Below, one piece after another: positions 18,958 through 32,802 of a stretch of 64,000 nt of DNA. The notes beneath the pieces were generated by a model that did no database searches, had not been told where the DNA came from, and worked only from the letters and a program-made list of their open reading frames with translations. Origin of the DNA: Aggregicoccus sp. 17bor-14. GTDB taxonomy: Bacteria > Myxococcota > Myxococcia > Myxococcales > Myxococcaceae. The DNA is taken from the NCBI RefSeq assembly GCF_009659535.1, contig NZ_VJZZ01000008.1:250001-314000 (forward strand). Reading direction: 5' to 3'. The translations under genes and the position numbers were made by a program. Within the stretch, counting starts at the first letter, position 1. Each line of letters begins with the position of its first letter.

Positions 18958-19563
18958 CTACTTCGCGCTTCTCTTGGCGAGAACGCCACGGATGGCATTC
19001 AAGTCTACGCCCAGCGGGCGCACCGCGACGAGCAGGTGGTAGAGCAGATCCGCCGCCTCCTCCGCCGCGCGCTCGCGGTCCCCGTCCGCGCAGGCCGTGA
19101 CGAGCTCGGCGGCCTCCTCGCCGATCTTCTTCAGGCGCAGGTTCCGGTCGTCGAGCAGCCTGCGCGTGTAGCTCGGCTTCTCTCCGGCCGCGGGCGGCTG
19201 CGCCGCGCGCTGTGCAATCGTGGCGTCGAGCGCAGCGAGGGCCTCGGTGGGGCCTGCATCGAAGCAGGAGACGGCGCCCGTGTGGCACGCAGGCCCGGCC
19301 TTTACTACGCGGGCGAGCACCGCATCGCGGTCGCAGTCCGGGGTGAGCGAGACCACGCGCTGGGTGTTGCCGCTGGTCGCTCCCTTGTGCCACAGCCCGC
19401 GCGTGCGCGAGCGGTAGTGCATCTCGCCCGTCGCGAGCGTGCGCTCCAGGGCCTCGCGGTCCGCGTGCGCGACCATGAGCAGCTCGCCCGACTGCGCGTC
19501 CTGGGTCACCACCGTGACGAGCCCGTTGGCCTTCTCGAAGTTCAGCGAGGCGACATCCAGCAT
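18958..19563 (-). CDS. hisI: HisIE: phosphoribosyl-AMP cyclohydrolase / phosphoribosyl-ATP pyrophosphatase
   Basis: A 201-residue fusion. Residues 1-110 are HisI with its zinc/metal motif ([10 protein letters not shown] and a downstream [11 protein letters not shown]). Residues 125-201 are HisE with the [11 protein letters not shown] and [13 protein letters not shown] helices. It performs histidine synthesis steps 2 and 3. It is the last gene of the operon; its ATG overlaps the hisN stop by one base (TGATG). Confidence 0.95.
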
Positions 19564-20342
19564 CACGTGTCCCTCACCGCGCCGAGCAGCGTGCGCACCG
19601 GCACGTCCAGCGCCCCGTTGGTGGCGATGGCATTGCCGCCGAAGGAGGTGCGCGTGCCGGTCCAGTCGGTGAAGACGCCGCCCGCCTCCTCGACGATGGG
19701 CTGCAGCGCGGCCGCGTCCCAGGGGGAGAGGATCTCGTCCACCATCACCTCAGCGCGCCCCGTGGCGAGCAGCAGGTAGCCGTAGCAGTCGCCCCACGTG
19801 CGGGTCATCCCCACCTTCGCGCTGAGCGCGCGCCAGGCGCGGCCGCGGTCGGGGTACGCGAGGAAGCGCTCGTCCGTGGCGAGGATGACGGCGCGCGAGA
19901 GGTCCGCCTCCGACGATACGCGCGTGGGCCGGTCGTTCCAGAAGCAGCCCTGCCCGGGCGCCGCCACCAGCAGCTCGCCCACCGCGGGGAAGTAGGCGCA
20001 GCCGGCGAGGATGCGCTCGCCCTCGGCCACGGCCACCAGCGTGCCCCACAGCGGCACGCCGCGCACGAAGGTGCGGGTGCCGTCGATGGGGTCGAGGATC
20101 CACCGGCGGCGCGCCGTCTTGCGCACCTCGCCGAACTCCTCGCCGAGGATGCCGTCGTCGGGGAAGCGCGCCTCGATCCAGTCGCGCGCCGTCTGCTCCG
20201 CGGTGCGGTCCGCCACCGTCACCGGCGAGCCGTCACCCTTGGACTCCACCTCGATGCGCTCGCGGAAGAAGCCGAGCGCCACGTCACCGGCCTTGCGCGC
20301 CACCTCGGCCGCGGCCTCCATCAGTCCCTGTGCCGACGTCAT
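19563..20342 (-). CDS. hisN: histidinol-phosphate phosphatase, inositol-monophosphatase type
   Basis: A 259-residue member of the inositol monophosphatase superfamily. The Mg ligands are visible: GEEFG at 67-71 (Glu68/69), DPIDGTRTF at 84-92 (Asp84, Asp87) and the downstream [17 protein letters not shown]. Its place within the his operon supports the histidinol-phosphatase role (HisN type) rather than a general inositol phosphatase; there is no PHP-type HisK or HisB phosphatase domain nearby. It overlaps hisF by four bases (ATGA) and hisI by one. Confidence 0.9.
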
Positions 20343-21100
20343 GTCCCGCTCCTCACCGCGAGGCCGCTCTTCACGAGCAGGCCCTTGATGTCATCCACCG
20401 TGGTCACGGCGTCGTGGAGGATGCCCGCCACCAGCGCCGCGTCCGCCCTGCCCTCCTGCAGCGCCGCCCGCACGTGCTCGGCGCTGCCCGCTCCCCCCGA
20501 GGCGATGACCGGCACGCTCACCGCGTCCGCCACCGCCTGGGTCAGGGCGAGGTCATACCCCGAGCGCGCCCCGTCGCGGTCGATGCTGGTGAGCAGCACC
20601 TCCCCCGCCCCGCGCCGCACGCACTCGCGCGCCCACGCCACCGCGTCCAGGTCCGTGGGCGTCTTGCCACCGCGGGTGTAGACGCGCCAGCGGTCTCCCT
20701 CGCGGCGCGCGTCGATGCTCGCCACCACGCACTGGCTTCCGAAGCGCTCGGCGCAGGCCGTGAGCAGCGCGGGGTTGGTCACCGCGGCCGAGTTGATGCT
20801 CACCTTGTCCGCCCCTGCCCGCAGCGCGCGCCCCACGTCGTCCACGGTGCGCACGCCGCCGCCCACGGTGAGCGGGATGAAGAGGCGCTCGGCCGTCTGG
20901 CGCACCAGGTCCAGCAGCGTGCTGCGCTCCTCCTCGCTCGCGGAGATGTCCAGGAAGGTGATCTCGTCCGCCCCTTCCTTCTCGTAGCGCGCGGCGAGGG
21001 CGACGGGGTCACCCACGTCTCGCAGGCCCTCGAACTTCACGCCCTTCACCACGCGTCCGCCCTTCACGTCGAGGCAGACGATGAGCCGCCGCGTCAGCAT
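20339..21100 (-). CDS. hisF: imidazole glycerol phosphate synthase, cyclase subunit HisF
   Basis: A 253-residue (beta/alpha)8 barrel. The catalytic Asp residues are in [14 protein letters not shown] (near residue 11) and in [13 protein letters not shown] (near 175). The phosphate-binding turns [11 protein letters not shown] and [10 protein letters not shown] are also present. It works with HisH to make IGP and AICAR. ATG 21100 overlaps the hisB stop (TGATG); a GTG three bases upstream is also possible. Confidence 0.96.
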
Positions 21101-21636
21101 CACTTCACCTCCAGGGCGACCGCACCCTTGGTGCTGAACACCGTGCCCGAGTCCACCATCGCGTCGCGCAGCGCGAGCGCGAGCGCCTTGAAGGCGGCCT
21201 CGGTGAGGTGGTGGCTGTCCTTGCCGCGCAGCACGCGCAGGTGGCAGGTGAGCTTCGCGTGCTCGCAGAAGCTGCGCATCCAGTGCTCGTAGAGCCGGTT
21301 CTTCAGGGGCCCGCGGTAGTAGAAGCGGCCGCAGGTATCCACCACCGCCTGCACCAGCGCGTCGTCCATGGGCAGGGTGCGCTCGCCGAAGCGCGCGGCC
21401 GTGGGCGGGATGACCGCGTACACGGCCGTGCCCAGGGTGATGGCCACGTCCTCCATGATGTGGTGGGTGAGGTCTCCACGCGCGTGCAGCGTGAGATCCA
21501 ACCCCGCGTAGCGCGCGAAGGTCGCGAGCATGTGATCGAAGAACTTGAGCCCGGTGTCCACCTTCGCCCGGCCCTCCCCGCGCGCGAGCTCCACGCGAAC
21601 CTGGGTCTCCTTCGTCTCCCGCACCACCGTCTTCAT
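21100..21636 (-). CDS. hisB: imidazoleglycerol-phosphate dehydratase, short variant
   Basis: A 178-residue monofunctional IGPD. The two metal-binding His repeats are recognisable as LTHHIMEDVAITLG (about 58-71) and DSHHLTEAAFKAL (about 148). The N-terminal FFDHMLATFARYAGLDL is standard. The first metal motif is shorter than the common GD-x-HIDDHH-x-x-ED form: three residues appear missing, leaving HH-x-x-ED. The protein is also shorter than the usual 190-200 residues. A related short form is likely in this bacterial group, but I cannot check. It overlaps hisA by four bases. Confidence 0.93.
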   Translation of the reverse strand: MKTVVRETKETQVRVELARGEGRAKVDTGLKFFDHMLATFARYAGLDLTLHARGDLTHHIMEDVAITLGTAVYAVIPPTAARFGERTLPMDDALVQAVVDTCGRFYYRGPLKNRLYEHWMRSFCEHAKLTCHLRVLRGKDSHHLTEAAFKALALALRDAMVDSGTVFSTKGAVALEVK

Positions 21637-22343
21637 GCGAACTCCTGCGCGACCGCGCGCGCGTCCAGCGTTCCCGTGTACAGCGCCATGCCCACCACCG
21701 CGCCGTAGGCGCCGACGCGCGCGAGCGCCCGCAGGTCCTCCAGCGTGGTCACCCCGCCGGAGGCGTAGAGCCGGTGCTGGCTGCGGCGCACCACCTCCTC
21801 CATCAGCGCGAGGTCCACCCCACCGAGCTGCCCCTCCTTGTGCACCGCCGTGACCAGCAGCCCCGCGATGGGCAGGGGCGCCAGGGCCGCGAGCACGTCC
21901 GCGATGTCGCGCGCGCTGCCGCTGGCCCAGCCGCGCGTCACCACCTCGCGCCCCTTCACGTCCGCCGCGACCACCAGCTTGTTGGGGAAGCGGTCCGCCA
22001 CGTCCGCGAGCCACGCCGCATCCTCGATGGCGCGCGTCCCCACGACGACGCGCCCGGCGCCCTGCGCGAGCAGCGCCTCGATGCGCTCCTCCTCGCGCAC
22101 GCCGCCGCCCACGGTGAAGGTGAGGCCGGGCTGGGAGAGGAGCTGCGCGACGACGCCCGCGTTCGTGCCGCGGCCGGTCGCCGCATCCAGGTCCACGACG
22201 TGGAAGGTGGTGAAGCCCAGGTCGCGCCACTGCTGCAGCGCTGCGAGCGGGTCGGGTAGGCGCACGCGCTCGGCGTCGTAGGCGCCGCCCACGAGCTGCA
22301 CGCAGGCGCCGTCGCGCAGGTCGATGGCAGGGATGGCGATCAT
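21633..22343 (-). CDS. hisA: ProFAR isomerase HisA
   Basis: A 236-residue barrel starting MIAIPAIDLRDGACVQL, with catalytic Asp8. It also has TVGGGVREEERI, VVVGTRAIED and the C-terminal ASGGVTTLEDLRAL phosphate-binding turn. It converts ProFAR to PRFAR. The ATG overlaps hisH by four bases (ATGA), as does its stop with hisB. Confidence 0.96.
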   Translation of the reverse strand: MIAIPAIDLRDGACVQLVGGAYDAERVRLPDPLAALQQWRDLGFTTFHVVDLDAATGRGTNAGVVAQLLSQPGLTFTVGGGVREEERIEALLAQGAGRVVVGTRAIEDAAWLADVADRFPNKLVVAADVKGREVVTRGWASGSARDIADVLAALAPLPIAGLLVTAVHKEGQLGGVDLALMEEVVRRSQHRLYASGGVTTLEDLRALARVGAYGAVVGMALYTGTLDARAVAQEFA

Positions 22344-22930
22344 GAGCGCACCTCGCGCAGGAAGGACTGCAGGAAGCGCACGCCCGCGGACGAGCTCTTC
22401 TCCGGGTGGAACTGCACGCCGAGCAGCTTCCCGCGCCGCACCACTGCCGGGAAGCGGTCTCCCTCGTACTCGGTCCACGCCCTCACCTCACCCTCGTCGT
22501 CGGGCCGGCAGGCGTAGCTGTTCGCGTAGTAGACGCTCTCGAGCCCGGTGGTCGCTGCGCCCTGCGCCGCCTCCACCGAGTTCCACCCGATGTGCGGCAC
22601 CCGCCGCGAGGTGAGGCGGGTCACGGGCCCGCGAAACAGGCCCAGGCCTGCTCCCTCTCCCTCGTCGCTGCGCTCGAACATCAGCTGCATGCCGAGGCAG
22701 ATGCCGAGGCAGGGCAGCCCCTGCGCCACGGCCTCGCGCATTGCCTCGCGCCCGGGCGCGAGTCGCGCCGCCGCCGCGCCGAAGGCGCCCACGCCGGGCA
22801 GCACGAGCAAGTCCGTGTCCAGCGCGCGCAGCGGATCCTCCTGCACCCGCAGCTCCACGCCGTCCGCCGAGAGCGCCTTGGCGAGTGAGTGCAGGTTGCC
22901 TGCGCCGTAGTCGAAGAGCGTGACCCTCAT
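22340..22930 (-). CDS. hisH: imidazole glycerol phosphate synthase, glutaminase subunit HisH
   Basis: A 196-residue class I glutamine amidotransferase. The nucleophile is Cys78 (GICLGMQLMFE). The catalytic His-Glu pair lies in LLGVQFHPEKSS near 177-185, with the oxyanion strand VLPGVGAFG near 43-51. It supplies ammonia to HisF. Start and stop both overlap neighbours by four bases. Confidence 0.96.
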   Translation of the reverse strand: MRVTLFDYGAGNLHSLAKALSADGVELRVQEDPLRALDTDLLVLPGVGAFGAAAARLAPGREAMREAVAQGLPCLGICLGMQLMFERSDEGEGAGLGLFRGPVTRLTSRRVPHIGWNSVEAAQGAATTGLESVYYANSYACRPDDEGEVRAWTEYEGDRFPAVVRRGKLLGVQFHPEKSSSAGVRFLQSFLREVRS

Positions 22931-23967
22931 CCCCGTGCCTCCTGCAGCGCCTTCAGCGCCGCCTCCATCAGTGGCCAGGGCCCGCACCCGATGCGCAGCG
23001 CATCGCCGATGCCGGTCAGTCCCTGGAAAGCCCTCACGTTCACGCCCCGCTCACGCATGCGCCGCGCGACCTCCGGCGCACCCGGCAGCGGGACGAAGGC
23101 GAAGTTCGCCTCGGAGCGCAGCGGCCGCAGCCCCTGGCGCACGAGCTCTGCCGCGAGCCGCTCGCGCACCTCCACGGCCTCGGCCGCCCGCGCGCGCACC
23201 CACTCGAGGTCCTCGGTGAGCGCGGCCTCGGCCATGCGCTCGGCGACGCTGGAGATCTTGTAGGGCCCGCGCGCCTTCTCCACTTCGCTCACGAGCTCGG
23301 GCGCACCCACCGCGTAGCCCACCCGCATCCCCGCGAGCCCGAAGGCCTTGGAGAGCGTGCGGGTGACGAGCACGTTGCGCCGCGTGCGGGCCGCCTCGAG
23401 GTAGCTCTCGCGCGCGAACTCCGCGTAGGCCTCGTCGAGCAGCACGATCCCGGGCGCCTCGTTCAGCACGCGCTCCACGGCCGCGCGCGAGGCGACGGTG
23501 CCGGTGGGGTTGTTCGGCGTGCACAGGTAGAGGACCTTCGCGCGCGTCGCGAGCAGCCCCTCCGCGTCGATGTCTCCCTCGCGCGTGAGCGGCACCGGGA
23601 CCGCCTGGATGCCGTTCACCTTCGCGAAGATGGGCATCATCACGAAGGTGGGGTCCGGGAAGGCGAGCCGCTCGCCCTCCCCCACGAAGGCGCGCAGGGT
23701 GCAGTCGATGACGTCGTCCGAGCCGCAGCCGGTCACCACCTGCTCCGGTGCGCAGCCCGCGTACGCAGCGATGGCCGCCTTGAGCGCGCCGCCGTAGAGC
23801 GAGGGGTAGCGGGTGACGCGGCCCGCGACCGCCTCGCGCAGCGCGCGCTCCGCGGCCGGGGGCACCCCGAACAGGTTGGTGTTGTCGCTCAGGTCGATGG
23901 GACACTCGGGGCCCTTGGAGGGGGCGTAGAGCGGGATGTCCCGGTACGAGGGGCGGGCGAGCGTCAT
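22927..23967 (-). CDS. hisC: histidinol-phosphate aminotransferase
   Basis: A 346-residue PLP-dependent class I/II aminotransferase. It has the DNTNLFG N-terminus, the NNPTGT motif (about 156), the LLDEAYAEFA segment (about 180) and the PLP lysine in TRTLSKAFGLAGMRVGY (about 208). It transfers an amino group from Glu to imidazole acetol phosphate. It overlaps hisD and hisH by four bases each. Confidence 0.95.
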   Translation of the reverse strand: MTLARPSYRDIPLYAPSKGPECPIDLSDNTNLFGVPPAAERALREAVAGRVTRYPSLYGGALKAAIAAYAGCAPEQVVTGCGSDDVIDCTLRAFVGEGERLAFPDPTFVMMPIFAKVNGIQAVPVPLTREGDIDAEGLLATRAKVLYLCTPNNPTGTVASRAAVERVLNEAPGIVLLDEAYAEFARESYLEAARTRRNVLVTRTLSKAFGLAGMRVGYAVGAPELVSEVEKARGPYKISSVAERMAEAALTEDLEWVRARAAEAVEVRERLAAELVRQGLRPLRSEANFAFVPLPGAPEVARRMRERGVNVRAFQGLTGIGDALRIGCGPWPLMEAALKALQEARG

Positions 23968-25265
23968 GACATCCTCCAGGCGCGGGCGGCCGCGGCGTGC
24001 GCGGGCAGGCCCTCGCTGTCCGCGAGCCGGCCCACGTCCTCCGAGAGCCGCGCCGCCGCAGAGCGCTCCACCTGCTGCCAGGTGGTCCAGCGGTAGAAGT
24101 CGAGCACCGAGAGCCCGGAGTAGCTGCGCGCGAGGCCCGCCGTGGGCAGGGTGTGGTTCGCCCCGGTCATGTAGTCGCCGAAGGCCACCGAGGCGCTCTC
24201 GCCGAGGAACACGGTGCCGGCGTTGCGCACCTGCGCGAGCTGCGCGCGAGGGTCGGCCGTGGCGATGAGCAGGTGCTCGGGCGCGAAGTCCGCGACGAAG
24301 GGCCAGGCCTCCTCGAGCGAGGCGACGCTGAGCACCGCGCCGCGCTCGGAGAGACTGCTCGCCACGATCTCCCGGCGCTGCGCACGGGGCGCCTCGCGCT
24401 CGAGCGCCTGAGCGATGCGCGCGGCCGCATCCGCCCCCACCGCGAGCGTCACGCAGCACGCGTCTGGATCGTGCTCCGCCTGGGCGAGCATCTCGCGCGC
24501 CACGGCCTCAGGGTCCGCGCTCCCGTCCGCCACGACGAGGATCTCGCTGGGGCCGGCCGGAGCATCGATCCCCACCGCCCCCACCACGAGCAGCTTCGCG
24601 GCGGCCACGTAGGCGTTGCCCGGCCCCACGATGCGGTCCACCCGCGGCACGCTCTGGGTCCCGTACGCGAGCGCGGCCACCGCCCCCGCGCCGCCGAGCG
24701 CGAACACGCGGTCCGCGCCTGCGAGCGCCGCGGCCGCGAGCACGCCCTGCGCCGGGAGCCCGTCCGGACCAGGAGGCGAGCACACCACCACCTCCCCCAC
24801 CCCGGCGACCTTCGCGGGCACCACGCCCATGAGCACGCTGCTCGGGTACACGGCGCGGCCGCCGGGCGCATACACGCCCACGCGCCCGAGGGGATCCGGG
24901 CGGCGGCCCACACGCACGCCGTCCTCGGTCTCCACCTCCACCGGCTGCGGGCGCTGCGCCGCGTGGGCGCGGGCGATGTTGCGCGCCGCGCGCTCCAGGG
25001 CGCTGCGCACGCCGGGGTCGAGCGACTCGAGCGCGCGGCGGCACGCCTCGCGCGGGACCTCGAGCGCCTTCAGCTGCACGCGGTCCAGCTCGAGCGCGAG
25101 CGCGAAGAGGCCCGCATCTCCCTCCGCGCGCACGCGGGCGATGATGGCGGCGGCGCGGGCGCTCACCCCGGTATCCAGGGCGCCCGTGCGCTCGAGCAGG
25201 CGCGCGCGTTCGTCCTTTCCGAGGGCCGAGAGCGGCCCGGTGTAGCGAAGGACGGGCGCGCTCAC
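23964..25265 (-). CDS. hisD: histidinol dehydrogenase
   Basis: A 433-residue zinc enzyme for the last two oxidations of histidine synthesis. Visible family markers are RVGVYAPGG (about 122), GPGNAYVAAAKLLV, DAPAGPSEILVVAD and QAEHDPDA (about 255). The C-terminal zinc-ligand region includes GANHTLPTAGLARSYSGLS. GTG 25265 overlaps the hisG stop by four bases (GTGA). The frame happens to stay open far upstream through hisG in this GC-rich DNA, but the product clearly begins here. Confidence 0.95.
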   Translation of the reverse strand: MSAPVLRYTGPLSALGKDERARLLERTGALDTGVSARAAAIIARVRAEGDAGLFALALELDRVQLKALEVPREACRRALESLDPGVRSALERAARNIARAHAAQRPQPVEVETEDGVRVGRRPDPLGRVGVYAPGGRAVYPSSVLMGVVPAKVAGVGEVVVCSPPGPDGLPAQGVLAAAALAGADRVFALGGAGAVAALAYGTQSVPRVDRIVGPGNAYVAAAKLLVVGAVGIDAPAGPSEILVVADGSADPEAVAREMLAQAEHDPDACCVTLAVGADAAARIAQALEREAPRAQRREIVASSLSERGAVLSVASLEEAWPFVADFAPEHLLIATADPRAQLAQVRNAGTVFLGESASVAFGDYMTGANHTLPTAGLARSYSGLSVLDFYRWTTWQQVERSAAARLSEDVGRLADSEGLPAHAAAARAWRMS

Positions 25266-26119
25266 GGGATGAGCCTCTCGATGCGGGTGACGAGGATGCC
25301 CTCGCAGCCGATGGCCTTGAGCGCGGTGGTGGTTCGGTAGATGGAGCTCGCCGAGACCACGGCGTGCACCGCGACGTGGTTTCCGCCGTTGAGGATGTCC
25401 ACCACCGTGGGACCGTTGAGGCCGGGCAGCACCTCGCGCACGCGCGGCAGCATGTCGCGGGTGCAGTTGGCCATCAGGTAGCGCTTGCCGCGCGCGCGCA
25501 GCACGGAGCCCAGCGCCATGGTGAGCTCGTCGAGCTGGCGGGCCGTCTCGGCGTCGCGCCCCGGGCGGGCGATGAGCCGCGCGCTGGACTGGATGACGGT
25601 GTCCACCTCGCGCAGGCCGTTCATCTTCAGGGTGGAGCCGGTGGAGGTGAGGTCCACCACGATGTCCGCGATGCCCAGGTGGGGGGCAATCTCCGCGGCG
25701 CCCGAGACCGGCACCACCACCACCCGCTTTCCCTGCGCCGCGAAGTAGCGCTCGGTGAGGCGGGGGAAGCAGGTGGCCACGCGCACGCCGTCGCGCACGT
25801 CGTCCAGCTGCTCCACTCCGCTCTCCTCGCGCGCGGCGACCACGAGCCGGCAGCGGCCGAACTCGAGGTCCATGAGCAGGTCCAGCTCGCGACCGGCCTC
25901 GTTCACCAGATCCCATCCCGTGACGCCTGCCGCCGCGGCGCCGTCCGCCACGAACTCGGGGATGTCCTGGGCTCGCACGAAGATGGCTTCGAACTCGCCG
26001 CCGAGGCTCGCGGTGAGGGCGCGCTCGCCGCGGGCGCGCACCTCGAGCCCGGCGTCGTTGAACAGCTCGCGGACCTCTTCGGCGAGCCGGCCTTTGTTGG
26101 GGAGGGCGATCTTCAGCAT
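25262..26119 (-). CDS. hisG: ATP phosphoribosyltransferase, long form
   Basis: A 285-residue HisG catalysing the first, feedback-controlled step of histidine synthesis. The N-terminus is MLKIALPNKGRL. The PRPP-binding loop IVVDLTSTGSTLKMNGL is near 155-172. A C-terminal ACT-like regulatory domain (about 215-285) includes GNHVAVHAVVS and TALKAIGCEGILV. It is the long form, so it should not need HisZ, and none is seen. It is first in the structural operon, 43 bases after the attenuator terminator. Confidence 0.96.
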   Translation of the reverse strand: MLKIALPNKGRLAEEVRELFNDAGLEVRARGERALTASLGGEFEAIFVRAQDIPEFVADGAAAAGVTGWDLVNEAGRELDLLMDLEFGRCRLVVAAREESGVEQLDDVRDGVRVATCFPRLTERYFAAQGKRVVVVPVSGAAEIAPHLGIADIVVDLTSTGSTLKMNGLREVDTVIQSSARLIARPGRDAETARQLDELTMALGSVLRARGKRYLMANCTRDMLPRVREVLPGLNGPTVVDILNGGNHVAVHAVVSASSIYRTTTALKAIGCEGILVTRIERLIP

Positions 26120-26161
26120 GGGTGGCTTCCGGGTGCGGCGGGTGGGGAGAACGCCAAAACG

Positions 26162-26191
26162 AAAAGAGCCCGTCCTGGGGGGACGGGCTCT
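26162..26191 (-). terminator. his operon attenuator terminator
   Basis: On the minus strand, an 11-base perfect stem (arms 26181-26191 and 26165-26175), a five-base loop, and then TTTTCGTTTT. It lies between the leader peptide stop and hisG, so it would abort transcription before the operon. The segment GACGGGT inside the leader ORF (26271-26265) can pair with GCCCGTC of the stem's first arm (26188-26182), giving a candidate antiterminator. Confidence 0.85.
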
Positions 26192-26232
26192 CGGTCACTG
26201 CGGCAGGCTTTCCGGGTGGTGCGTCTGTGGCG

Positions 26233-26322
26233 TCAGTCACCCATGGCATGCGCGCGGCGAGCGGACCCGTCGGGGCCGTGCCGATGATGCGCATGATGGT
26301 GATGAGCGGTGGAGAGACGCAC
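26233..26322 (-). CDS. hisL: his operon leader peptide
   Basis: A 29-codon ORF beginning GTG and ending TGA, 113 bases before hisG. It contains eight His residues at positions 7, 8, 9, 10, 12, 13, 15 and 25; seven of nine consecutive codons (7-15) are His. This is the hallmark of a leader peptide whose translation senses charged tRNA-His. Stalling in the His run would leave the following GACGGGT free to form the antiterminator. The upstream promoter's predicted start falls on or next to the GTG, so the leader may be translated without a Shine-Dalgarno; a TAGGA eight bases upstream is the alternative but overlaps the -10. Confidence 0.85.
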   Translation of the reverse strand: MRLSTAHHHHAHHRHGPDGSARRAHAMGD

Positions 26323-26329
26323 GGAGCCA

Positions 26330-26359
26330 GTCCTAACGCCGCCCAGGGCCCGCCGTCAA
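26330..26359 (-). promoter_or_regulatory. his operon promoter
   Basis: TTGACG (26354-26359), an 18-base spacer and TAGGAC (26330-26335), read on the minus strand. The predicted start is at about 26322-26323, which coincides with the first base of the leader peptide. The region is shared with the divergent thiO gene. Confidence 0.5.
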
Positions 26360-26405
26360 CCTGCGCTTGAAATGCACGCGGCAGCGGAGCAGAAGCCCGG
26401 GTCAT

Positions 26406-27596
26406 ATGAGCGAGTCCAGCGCGCGCAAGGGACAAGACAAGGGCCCAGACGTCATCGTCATCGGCGGAGGCCTGATGGGCTGCGGCATCGCGCTGCGCCT
26501 GTGCCAGGCGGGCGCGCGGGTGACGGTGCTCGAGCGCTCCATCCCCGGCGCGGAGGCCTCGAGCGCGGCGGCCGGCATCCTCGCCCCGCAGATGGAGTCC
26601 GAGGGGCCCGGCCCCTTCCTCGAGCTGTGCCTGCGCAGCCGCGCGCTCTACCCCGCCTTCGCCCAGGAGCTGCTGGAGCTCACGGGGGTGAACGTGGCGT
26701 ACCTGCCCAGCGGCGTGCTGCACACGGCCTTCGACGAGGGGCGCCTGCACCACCTGGAGGCGACGGTGGCCTGGCAGCGCGCGCTCGGCCTGCGCGCGGA
26801 GCTGCTCACGGGTGAGGAGGCGCGCGCGCTGGAGCCTGCGCTCGCGCCGGAGGTGCTCGCCGCAGCGCACTTCCCCGACGATCACCAGGTGGACAACCGC
26901 CTGCTGGTGCGCGCGCTGACGATGGCGGCCGCGCGCGCCGGGGCGCAGTTCCGCAGCGGCTACGTGCGCGGCATCCTCGAGGAGGGCGGCCGCGCGGTGG
27001 GCGTGGACCTGGACGGCGAGCCCTTGCGCGCGGACGCGGTGGTGGTGGCCGCGGGCTCCTGGTCGGGGCTCGTGCAGGGGCTGCCCCTGGACCCGCGCAC
27101 GGTGCGCCCCATGCGCGGGCAGATGCTGCAGCTGCAGACGCGCTTGCCGCTCATGCGCCACATCCTCGTCTCGCCCGAGGGCTACCTCGTGCCGCGCGCC
27201 GACGGGCGCGTCATCGCGGGCAGCACCATGGAGTTCGCGGGCTTCGACAAGCAGGTCACGGCGGAGGGGCTCGCGCGCATCCTCGCGCTGGCGCTGCGCC
27301 TGTGCCCGCAGCTCGCGAGCGCCGCGGTGGACTCGAGCTGGGCAGGCTTCCGCCCCTACACCGAGGACCACCTGCCGCTGCTGGGCCCCGGCCCCCTGCC
27401 CGGCCTCTTCCTCGCCACGGGCCACTTCCGCAACGGCATCCTCCTCACCCCCATCACCGCGAAGCTCGTGGCGCAGGCAGTGATGGGCGAGCGGACCAGC
27501 GTGGACCTCGCGCCCTTCCGCTACGACCGCCCGGCAGTGCGCCCGCCTGCCCGCTCGGCCGCTGCGGGGAGCCCGACCGAGGGTGCGGGGGGCTGA
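26406..27596 (+). CDS. thiO: glycine-oxidase-type FAD oxidoreductase (ThiO)
   Basis: A 396-residue DAO-family flavoprotein. The Rossmann motif VIVIGGGLMGCGIALRL is at about 16-32, and SAAAGILAPQ is near 55. The C-terminal FAD/substrate motif FRPYTEDHLPLLGPG...GHFRNGILLTPITA is typical of ThiO, which oxidises glycine to the iminoacetate used for the thiazole of thiamine. ThiO is the best assignment, supported by thiC in this window; the other thiazole genes are not adjacent, so another amine substrate cannot be excluded. It diverges from the his operon. Confidence 0.85.
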   Translation: MSESSARKGQDKGPDVIVIGGGLMGCGIALRLCQAGARVTVLERSIPGAEASSAAAGILAPQMESEGPGPFLELCLRSRALYPAFAQELLELTGVNVAYLPSGVLHTAFDEGRLHHLEATVAWQRALGLRAELLTGEEARALEPALAPEVLAAAHFPDDHQVDNRLLVRALTMAAARAGAQFRSGYVRGILEEGGRAVGVDLDGEPLRADAVVVAAGSWSGLVQGLPLDPRTVRPMRGQMLQLQTRLPLMRHILVSPEGYLVPRADGRVIAGSTMEFAGFDKQVTAEGLARILALALRLCPQLASAAVDSSWAGFRPYTEDHLPLLGPGPLPGLFLATGHFRNGILLTPITAKLVAQAVMGERTSVDLAPFRYDRPAVRPPARSAAAGSPTEGAGG

Positions 27597-30542: not shown

Positions 30543-32618
<2,076 letters not shown>

Positions 32619-32631
32619 GTCACTGCGTCCC

Positions 32632-32726: not shown

Positions 32727-32802
<76 letters not shown>

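Follow-up and report, generated by a model that had tools for sequence, protein, structure and literature searches.

The best-known histidine attenuator is the his leader of Escherichia coli and Salmonella (RF00514), which lies before hisG and the complete his operon and combines a leader of seven histidine codons in a row with an alternative terminator and antiterminator; its mechanism has been described in the enterobacteria (PMC3896937, PMC9413887). His leader peptides have been reported for Gammaproteobacteria and for some Firmicutes (PMC2965389, PMC9413887). The Firmicutes leaders, before hisS/hisZ in bacilli and before other his genes, show that a His-codon leader with a terminator also exists outside Proteobacteria (PMC2965389, PMC9413887), with three to five His in a row (PMC9413887). 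Leader-peptide control in high-GC bacteria is represented by the actinobacterial trp and ilv and the mycobacterial cys attenuators, and no his attenuator was found in Actinobacteria (PMC1262725). In Sinorhizobium meliloti the start codon of trpL is the 5' end of the rnTrpL transcript, and rnTrpL and its peptide peTrpL are reported to act in trans (PMC7298713).

In the 64-kb stretch of Aggregicoccus sp. 17bor-14 DNA analysed here (the window), the his operon is very probably under the control of a ribosome-mediated transcription attenuator, with a predicted regulation by histidine. It shares with the E. coli and Salmonella leader the His codons, the alternative terminator and antiterminator and the position before hisG and a complete his operon. 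It differs in that the His run is interrupted (HHHHAHHxH), that a GTG or ATG directly follows the promoter without a Shine-Dalgarno site, that the pairing core is GACGGG:CCCGUC, and that it is found in Myxococcaceae and Gemmatimonadota. The Firmicutes leaders, as described, have three to five His codons in a row and precede other genes. In rnTrpL the leader ORF is at the 5' end, as is probable here, with Trp there and His here. RF00514 gave no cmscan match at E≤10 in the leader, and no other Rfam family, T-box or riboswitch included, reached threshold there. In the searchable literature, which mostly leaves out subscription papers, we found no report of a his leader peptide in Myxococcota or Gemmatimonadota. 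The mechanism is classical and unchanged by our results, the family appears to be undescribed, and his attenuation by a leader peptide is extended to two phyla for which no report was found.

The leader ORF and the his operon

The his operon of the window lies on the minus strand and contains nine overlapping or abutting genes in the order G-D-C-H-A-B-F-N-IE. The first predicted regulated gene is a long-form hisG of 285 aa (25262..26119), which scores above the cut-offs of both TIGR00070 and TIGR03455. It is followed by hisD, hisC, hisH, hisA, hisB, hisF, hisN and a hisI/hisE-like ORF (18958..25265), all with NCBIfam matches except the last (19566-18958), which was recognised from its own sequence only. 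The upstream neighbour is divergent from hisG, on the plus strand in the ORF 26367-27596, and its product presumably resembles the glycine oxidase ThiO.

The leader peptide ORF, VRLSTAHHHHAHHRHGPDGSARRAHAMGD*, is found between these two genes on the minus strand (26233..26322), with a GTG start at 26322-26320 and the stop codon at 26235-26233. As the preliminary description had it, eight of its 29 codons are His, and seven of these fall within the nine codons 7-15 (26278..26304). At least six His in nine codons occur in a single place on the two strands of the window, and nowhere in 100 Markov-1 random windows with the same dinucleotide make-up. The ORF is conserved in relatives, and a short ORF rich in codons for the amino acid that the operon makes is what characterises a ribosome-mediated attenuator.

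Codon variation was analysed in 48 ungapped and distinct Myxococcaceae leaders. Variation at the third base of the first three His columns was 0.19, 0.42 and 0.42, and at most 0.15 at the first two bases; counted over all nine-codon windows, there are 397 CAT and 234 CAC codons. Later in the leader, CAT GCG CAT CAT, GAC GGG and GCG CAT show little or no variation at any codon position, which is to be expected where the RNA must also pair (CATGCGC can do so with GCGCATG).

Terminator, antiterminator and the choice between them

The leader stop codon is followed after 40 nt by an intrinsic terminator, GAGAGCCCGTCC-CCCCA-GGACGGGCTCTT, with a 12-bp stem and a T tract (26192-26164, minus strand; 26154..26192 with the following TTCGTTTT), and 44 nt separate it from the hisG ATG. 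The terminator search found one such structure against 0.2 expected in shuffles, which confirms the terminator that had been read before hisG, and its place between leader ORF and first gene is that of an attenuator. A simple terminator was recognised in 109 distinct leaders; the strict search did not pick up five loci, including L061 and L088, where the hairpin is longer and branched. That the terminator marks the end of an upstream gene can be ruled out, because the neighbour is divergent, and on the plus strand no T tract follows the hairpin.

The competing antiterminator hairpin (26182..26271, minus strand) joins GACGGG at 26271-26266 to CCCGTC at 26187-26182. A pairing of GACGGGT with GCCCGTC had been proposed before; its core is indeed complementary, but the seven bases are only the core of a helix that extends inwards to about 20-22 bp. 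The 20 nt after GACGGG pair with the stretch before the terminator and use different bases in different lineages, e.g. CUCG:CGAG, UUCG:CGAA, GUGC:GCAC and UGC:GCA. In three Myxococcaceae MAGs (L061, L085 and L088) the core is GUCGGG or AUCGGG and the pre-terminator stretch has CCCGAC, apparently a compensating change from A-U to U-A. In the termination state, the minimum free energy fold contains a 1:2 (protector) hairpin (26255..26283, minus strand) that buries GACGGG and is enclosed by the pairing of CATGCGC 26295-26289 with GCGCATG 26253-26247.

The stretch that links leader and terminator is hard to align between phyla, and formal covariation counts were therefore replaced by a swap test, in which the duplex energy with the own partner was compared with that of partners from other species (54 non-redundant leaders, 20,000 permutations; shared ancestry is not corrected for). 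The R2:R3 helix of the antiterminator had -31.2 kcal/mol with own partners and -26.8 kcal/mol with swapped ones, and none of the 20,000 permutations was as low (P<5e-5, uncorrected for kinship). The test was also significant for the flanks without the conserved core, and separately in Myxococcaceae (P=0.0001) and in Gemmatimonadota with their allies. For the 1:2 hairpin it gave P<5e-5 over all leaders; among the Myxococcaceae leaders, with their nearly uniform arms, P was 0.07.

The influence of the ribosome was studied by static, not kinetic, folding of nascent RNAs that reached as far as the terminator's 5' arm, in 50 leaders and with the ribosome footprint masked. The antiterminator was predicted in 47 of them when the ribosome sat on the third His codon, in 23 when it was at the stop codon, that is still in about half of the relatives in these static folds, and in 18 without a ribosome; the window leader had six of six core pairs in the first state and none in the other two. 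With the ribosome placed at the final codon of the His run, the antiterminator is mostly blocked and formed in nine of the 50 leaders, and thus only early stalling in the His run would work. Computationally, the antiterminator excludes the terminator and is favoured by a stalled ribosome, as it should be in an attenuator. In the finished RNA of the window the terminator wins in every state that was folded, and the choice between the two structures must therefore be kinetic, which is a general trait of attenuators of the ribosome-mediated type.

Promoter, leader start and mechanism

Upstream of the leader, on the minus strand, the hexamers TTGACG (-35, 26354..26359) and TAGGAC (-10, 26330..26335) can be read with an 18-nt spacer, and the GTG begins after a gap of 7 nt. 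Most homologous leaders keep TTGAC; the -10 hexamer is a weak match in the Aggregicoccus sp. 17bor-14 genome and reads TAnnnT in most Gemmatimonadota relatives. The promoter proposed in the preliminary description is thus present in its hexamers, but a strict sigma-70 scan of the window gave no promoter match at the leader, so the case for it comes from a geometry that is conserved in relatives. Of 107 homologous leaders, 101 have a TTGAC-type -35 and a -10 hexamer at a spacing of 16-19 nt, where shuffles gave 3.8, and in 99 of the 107 the start codon lies 5-10 nt 3' of the -10 (mean 0.37 and maximum 2 when the upstream stretch is shuffled). Tetramers resembling a Shine-Dalgarno site precede the start codon in 6 of 104 leaders and are absent in the other 98.

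Transcription usually starts some 6-8 nt after the -10. With the spacing found here, +1 is predicted on or adjoining the start codon of the leader, and the geometry would leave a 5' UTR of 0 to about 3 nt in the 99 leaders, which agrees with the earlier suggestion that the leader begins at or next to the transcription start. This spacing and the lack of Shine-Dalgarno sites indicate that the leader mRNA probably is leaderless, and the sensing ribosome would then load as soon as the transcript emerges, without Shine-Dalgarno pairing. The family offers a natural and conserved test case for whether leaderless initiation can drive the timing of an attenuator.

Most likely, the RNA switch senses histidine shortage through the speed of the ribosome over the His codons. 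Transcription would start on the GTG or no more than about 3 nt away from it. A ribosome would then begin translation directly from the 5' end, with no Shine-Dalgarno site to guide it. When charged His-tRNA is plentiful, the ribosome should pass the His codons and reach the stop codon, the 1:2 hairpin would bury GACGGG, the terminator would form and an RNA of about 160 nt would be released. When His-tRNA is short, the ribosome is expected to stall in codons 7-13 and to cover the 5' side of the 1:2 hairpin. GACGGG and the next 20 nt would then be free to pair with the 30 nt that end in CCCGUC, and this long antiterminator would take up the 5' arm of the terminator and let the polymerase continue into hisG. 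The original reading as ribosome-mediated attenuation is well supported in that every element it named is present and conserved in relatives, the regulation itself being predicted.

The same switch could also operate behind an ordinary 5' UTR, with transcription starting further upstream and the leader translated from a Shine-Dalgarno-like or unstructured site. The poor -10 of the window, the negative strict scan and a +1 that is placed by prediction would all fit with this. Against it, 99 of 107 leaders from two phyla have the TTGAC box and the -10 at a fixed distance from the start codon, where 0.37 would be expected, and 98 of 104 leaders have no motif resembling a Shine-Dalgarno site; we therefore consider an ordinary 5' UTR unlikely.

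Two other explanations concern the leader itself. A structural RNA sensor, such as a riboswitch, a T-box or a protein-bound leader, might act on the conserved terminator and leave the His-rich ORF as a by-product, or at least not as the sensor, and the high conservation of the second half of the leader at the RNA level (GAC GGG and GCG CAT invariant) is what one would expect from it. Such a sensor is extremely improbable, however, as the His run is retained through synonymous changes and the most diverged leaders keep it while the remaining sequence is altered; the Rfam search, which found nothing in the leader, did detect a TPP riboswitch at a distance of 6 kb. Besides attenuation, the leader RNA set free by termination, or the His-rich peptide, might also act in trans. 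The layout, in which an attenuator RNA carries a small leaderless ORF, is like that of rnTrpL/peTrpL of S. meliloti (PMC7298713), and the peptide motif HHxHHxHGP[TD]G, also given as HHxHHxHGPTGRG, is common to the leaders of Myxococcaceae type and of Gemmatimonadota. Yet the codon run and the pairing account for all conserved parts, the peptide is variable elsewhere and no target is known, which makes an additional action in trans very unlikely.

Distribution and descent

With the HisG protein of the window as query, 80 loci were obtained from a genome contig database, to which orthologues from the same family were added. We read about 65-70 Myxococcaceae-type genomes and about 50 loci from Gemmatimonadota, Eisenbacteria and unassigned MAGs. 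A His-rich leader precedes the long-form hisG in 78 of the 80 database loci, and the contigs of the other two end 20 and 105 nt before hisG. In all other loci read, the leader has four or more His codons in a stretch of nine, and most leaders have six or seven. The comparison of hisG upstream regions across Myxococcota that the preliminary description had called for shows His codons, terminator and antiterminator pairing conserved in all Myxococcaceae-type loci examined, and among the hisG leaders we found none of the kind it had thought damaging, i.e. a conserved hairpin without a His-rich ORF. Homologous leaders are also present in MAGs of Gemmatimonadota and Eisenbacteria. It is likely that they all form a separate his attenuator family, with a leaderless GTG/ATG sensor ORF, which together with the long-form hisG operon has probably crossed phyla. 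It would supply Rfam with a new family of about 110 distinct sequences.

The short-form hisG of other Myxococcota has no His leader upstream, so the attenuator is not a feature of the whole phylum; in the order to which the Myxococcaceae belong, the leader is confined to lineages with long-form HisG. Three other Myxococcota loci (L163, L164 and L170) have a long-form HisG of about 33% identity, and their His-rich leaders belong to a different sequence type, of which MNSCVHHHHHHHQTRGVG is one example. In these loci a TTGAC box lies some 36-38 nt before the ATG, a terminator lies 3' of the leader, and there is a GGGUCGG-type pairing with the terminator arm. As such distant loci have His-rich leaders too, the device is either older or has arisen repeatedly. 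In two genomes of the same family (G049 and G085) HisG is unrelated, with 35-36% identity, and no HisG is seen in many nearly complete MAGs from this family.

Identity between the HisG of the window and its Gemmatimonadota counterparts is mostly 64-72%; with the short-form HisG found in the other families of the order it is 37-42%. The Myxococcaceae sequences occupy two separate positions among sequences of Gemmatimonadota type in a tree of 76 HisG whose deep forks are uncertain. This suggests that hisG was transferred between phyla, a reading that MAG binning may mislead. These results mark the Myxococcaceae his operon as having another origin than the his operons of the order's remaining families, and it carries a homologous element that has been kept across a large distance (HisG 64-82% identical). 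Some database labels disagree with the genes: the hisG and leader of L033 (BNCN01000004.1), listed as Comamonas sp. KCTC 72670, group with Myxococcus, and this is probably a mislabelled or mixed assembly. L066 and L103 are MAG contigs assigned to Kuenenia and Planctomycetota; they have the leader and a hisG of Gemmatimonadota or Myxococcaceae type, and are likely misbinned.

A quick look for sister attenuators upstream of acetolactate-synthase-like, leuA-like, trpE and pheS genes gave nothing convincing, and the region upstream of trpE at L206 contains no run of Trp codons. Elsewhere on the minus strand of the window, the TPP riboswitch (RF00059, 62 bits, 32513-32625) precedes thiC (32459-30543), and a tRNA gene is located nearby at 32730-32802.
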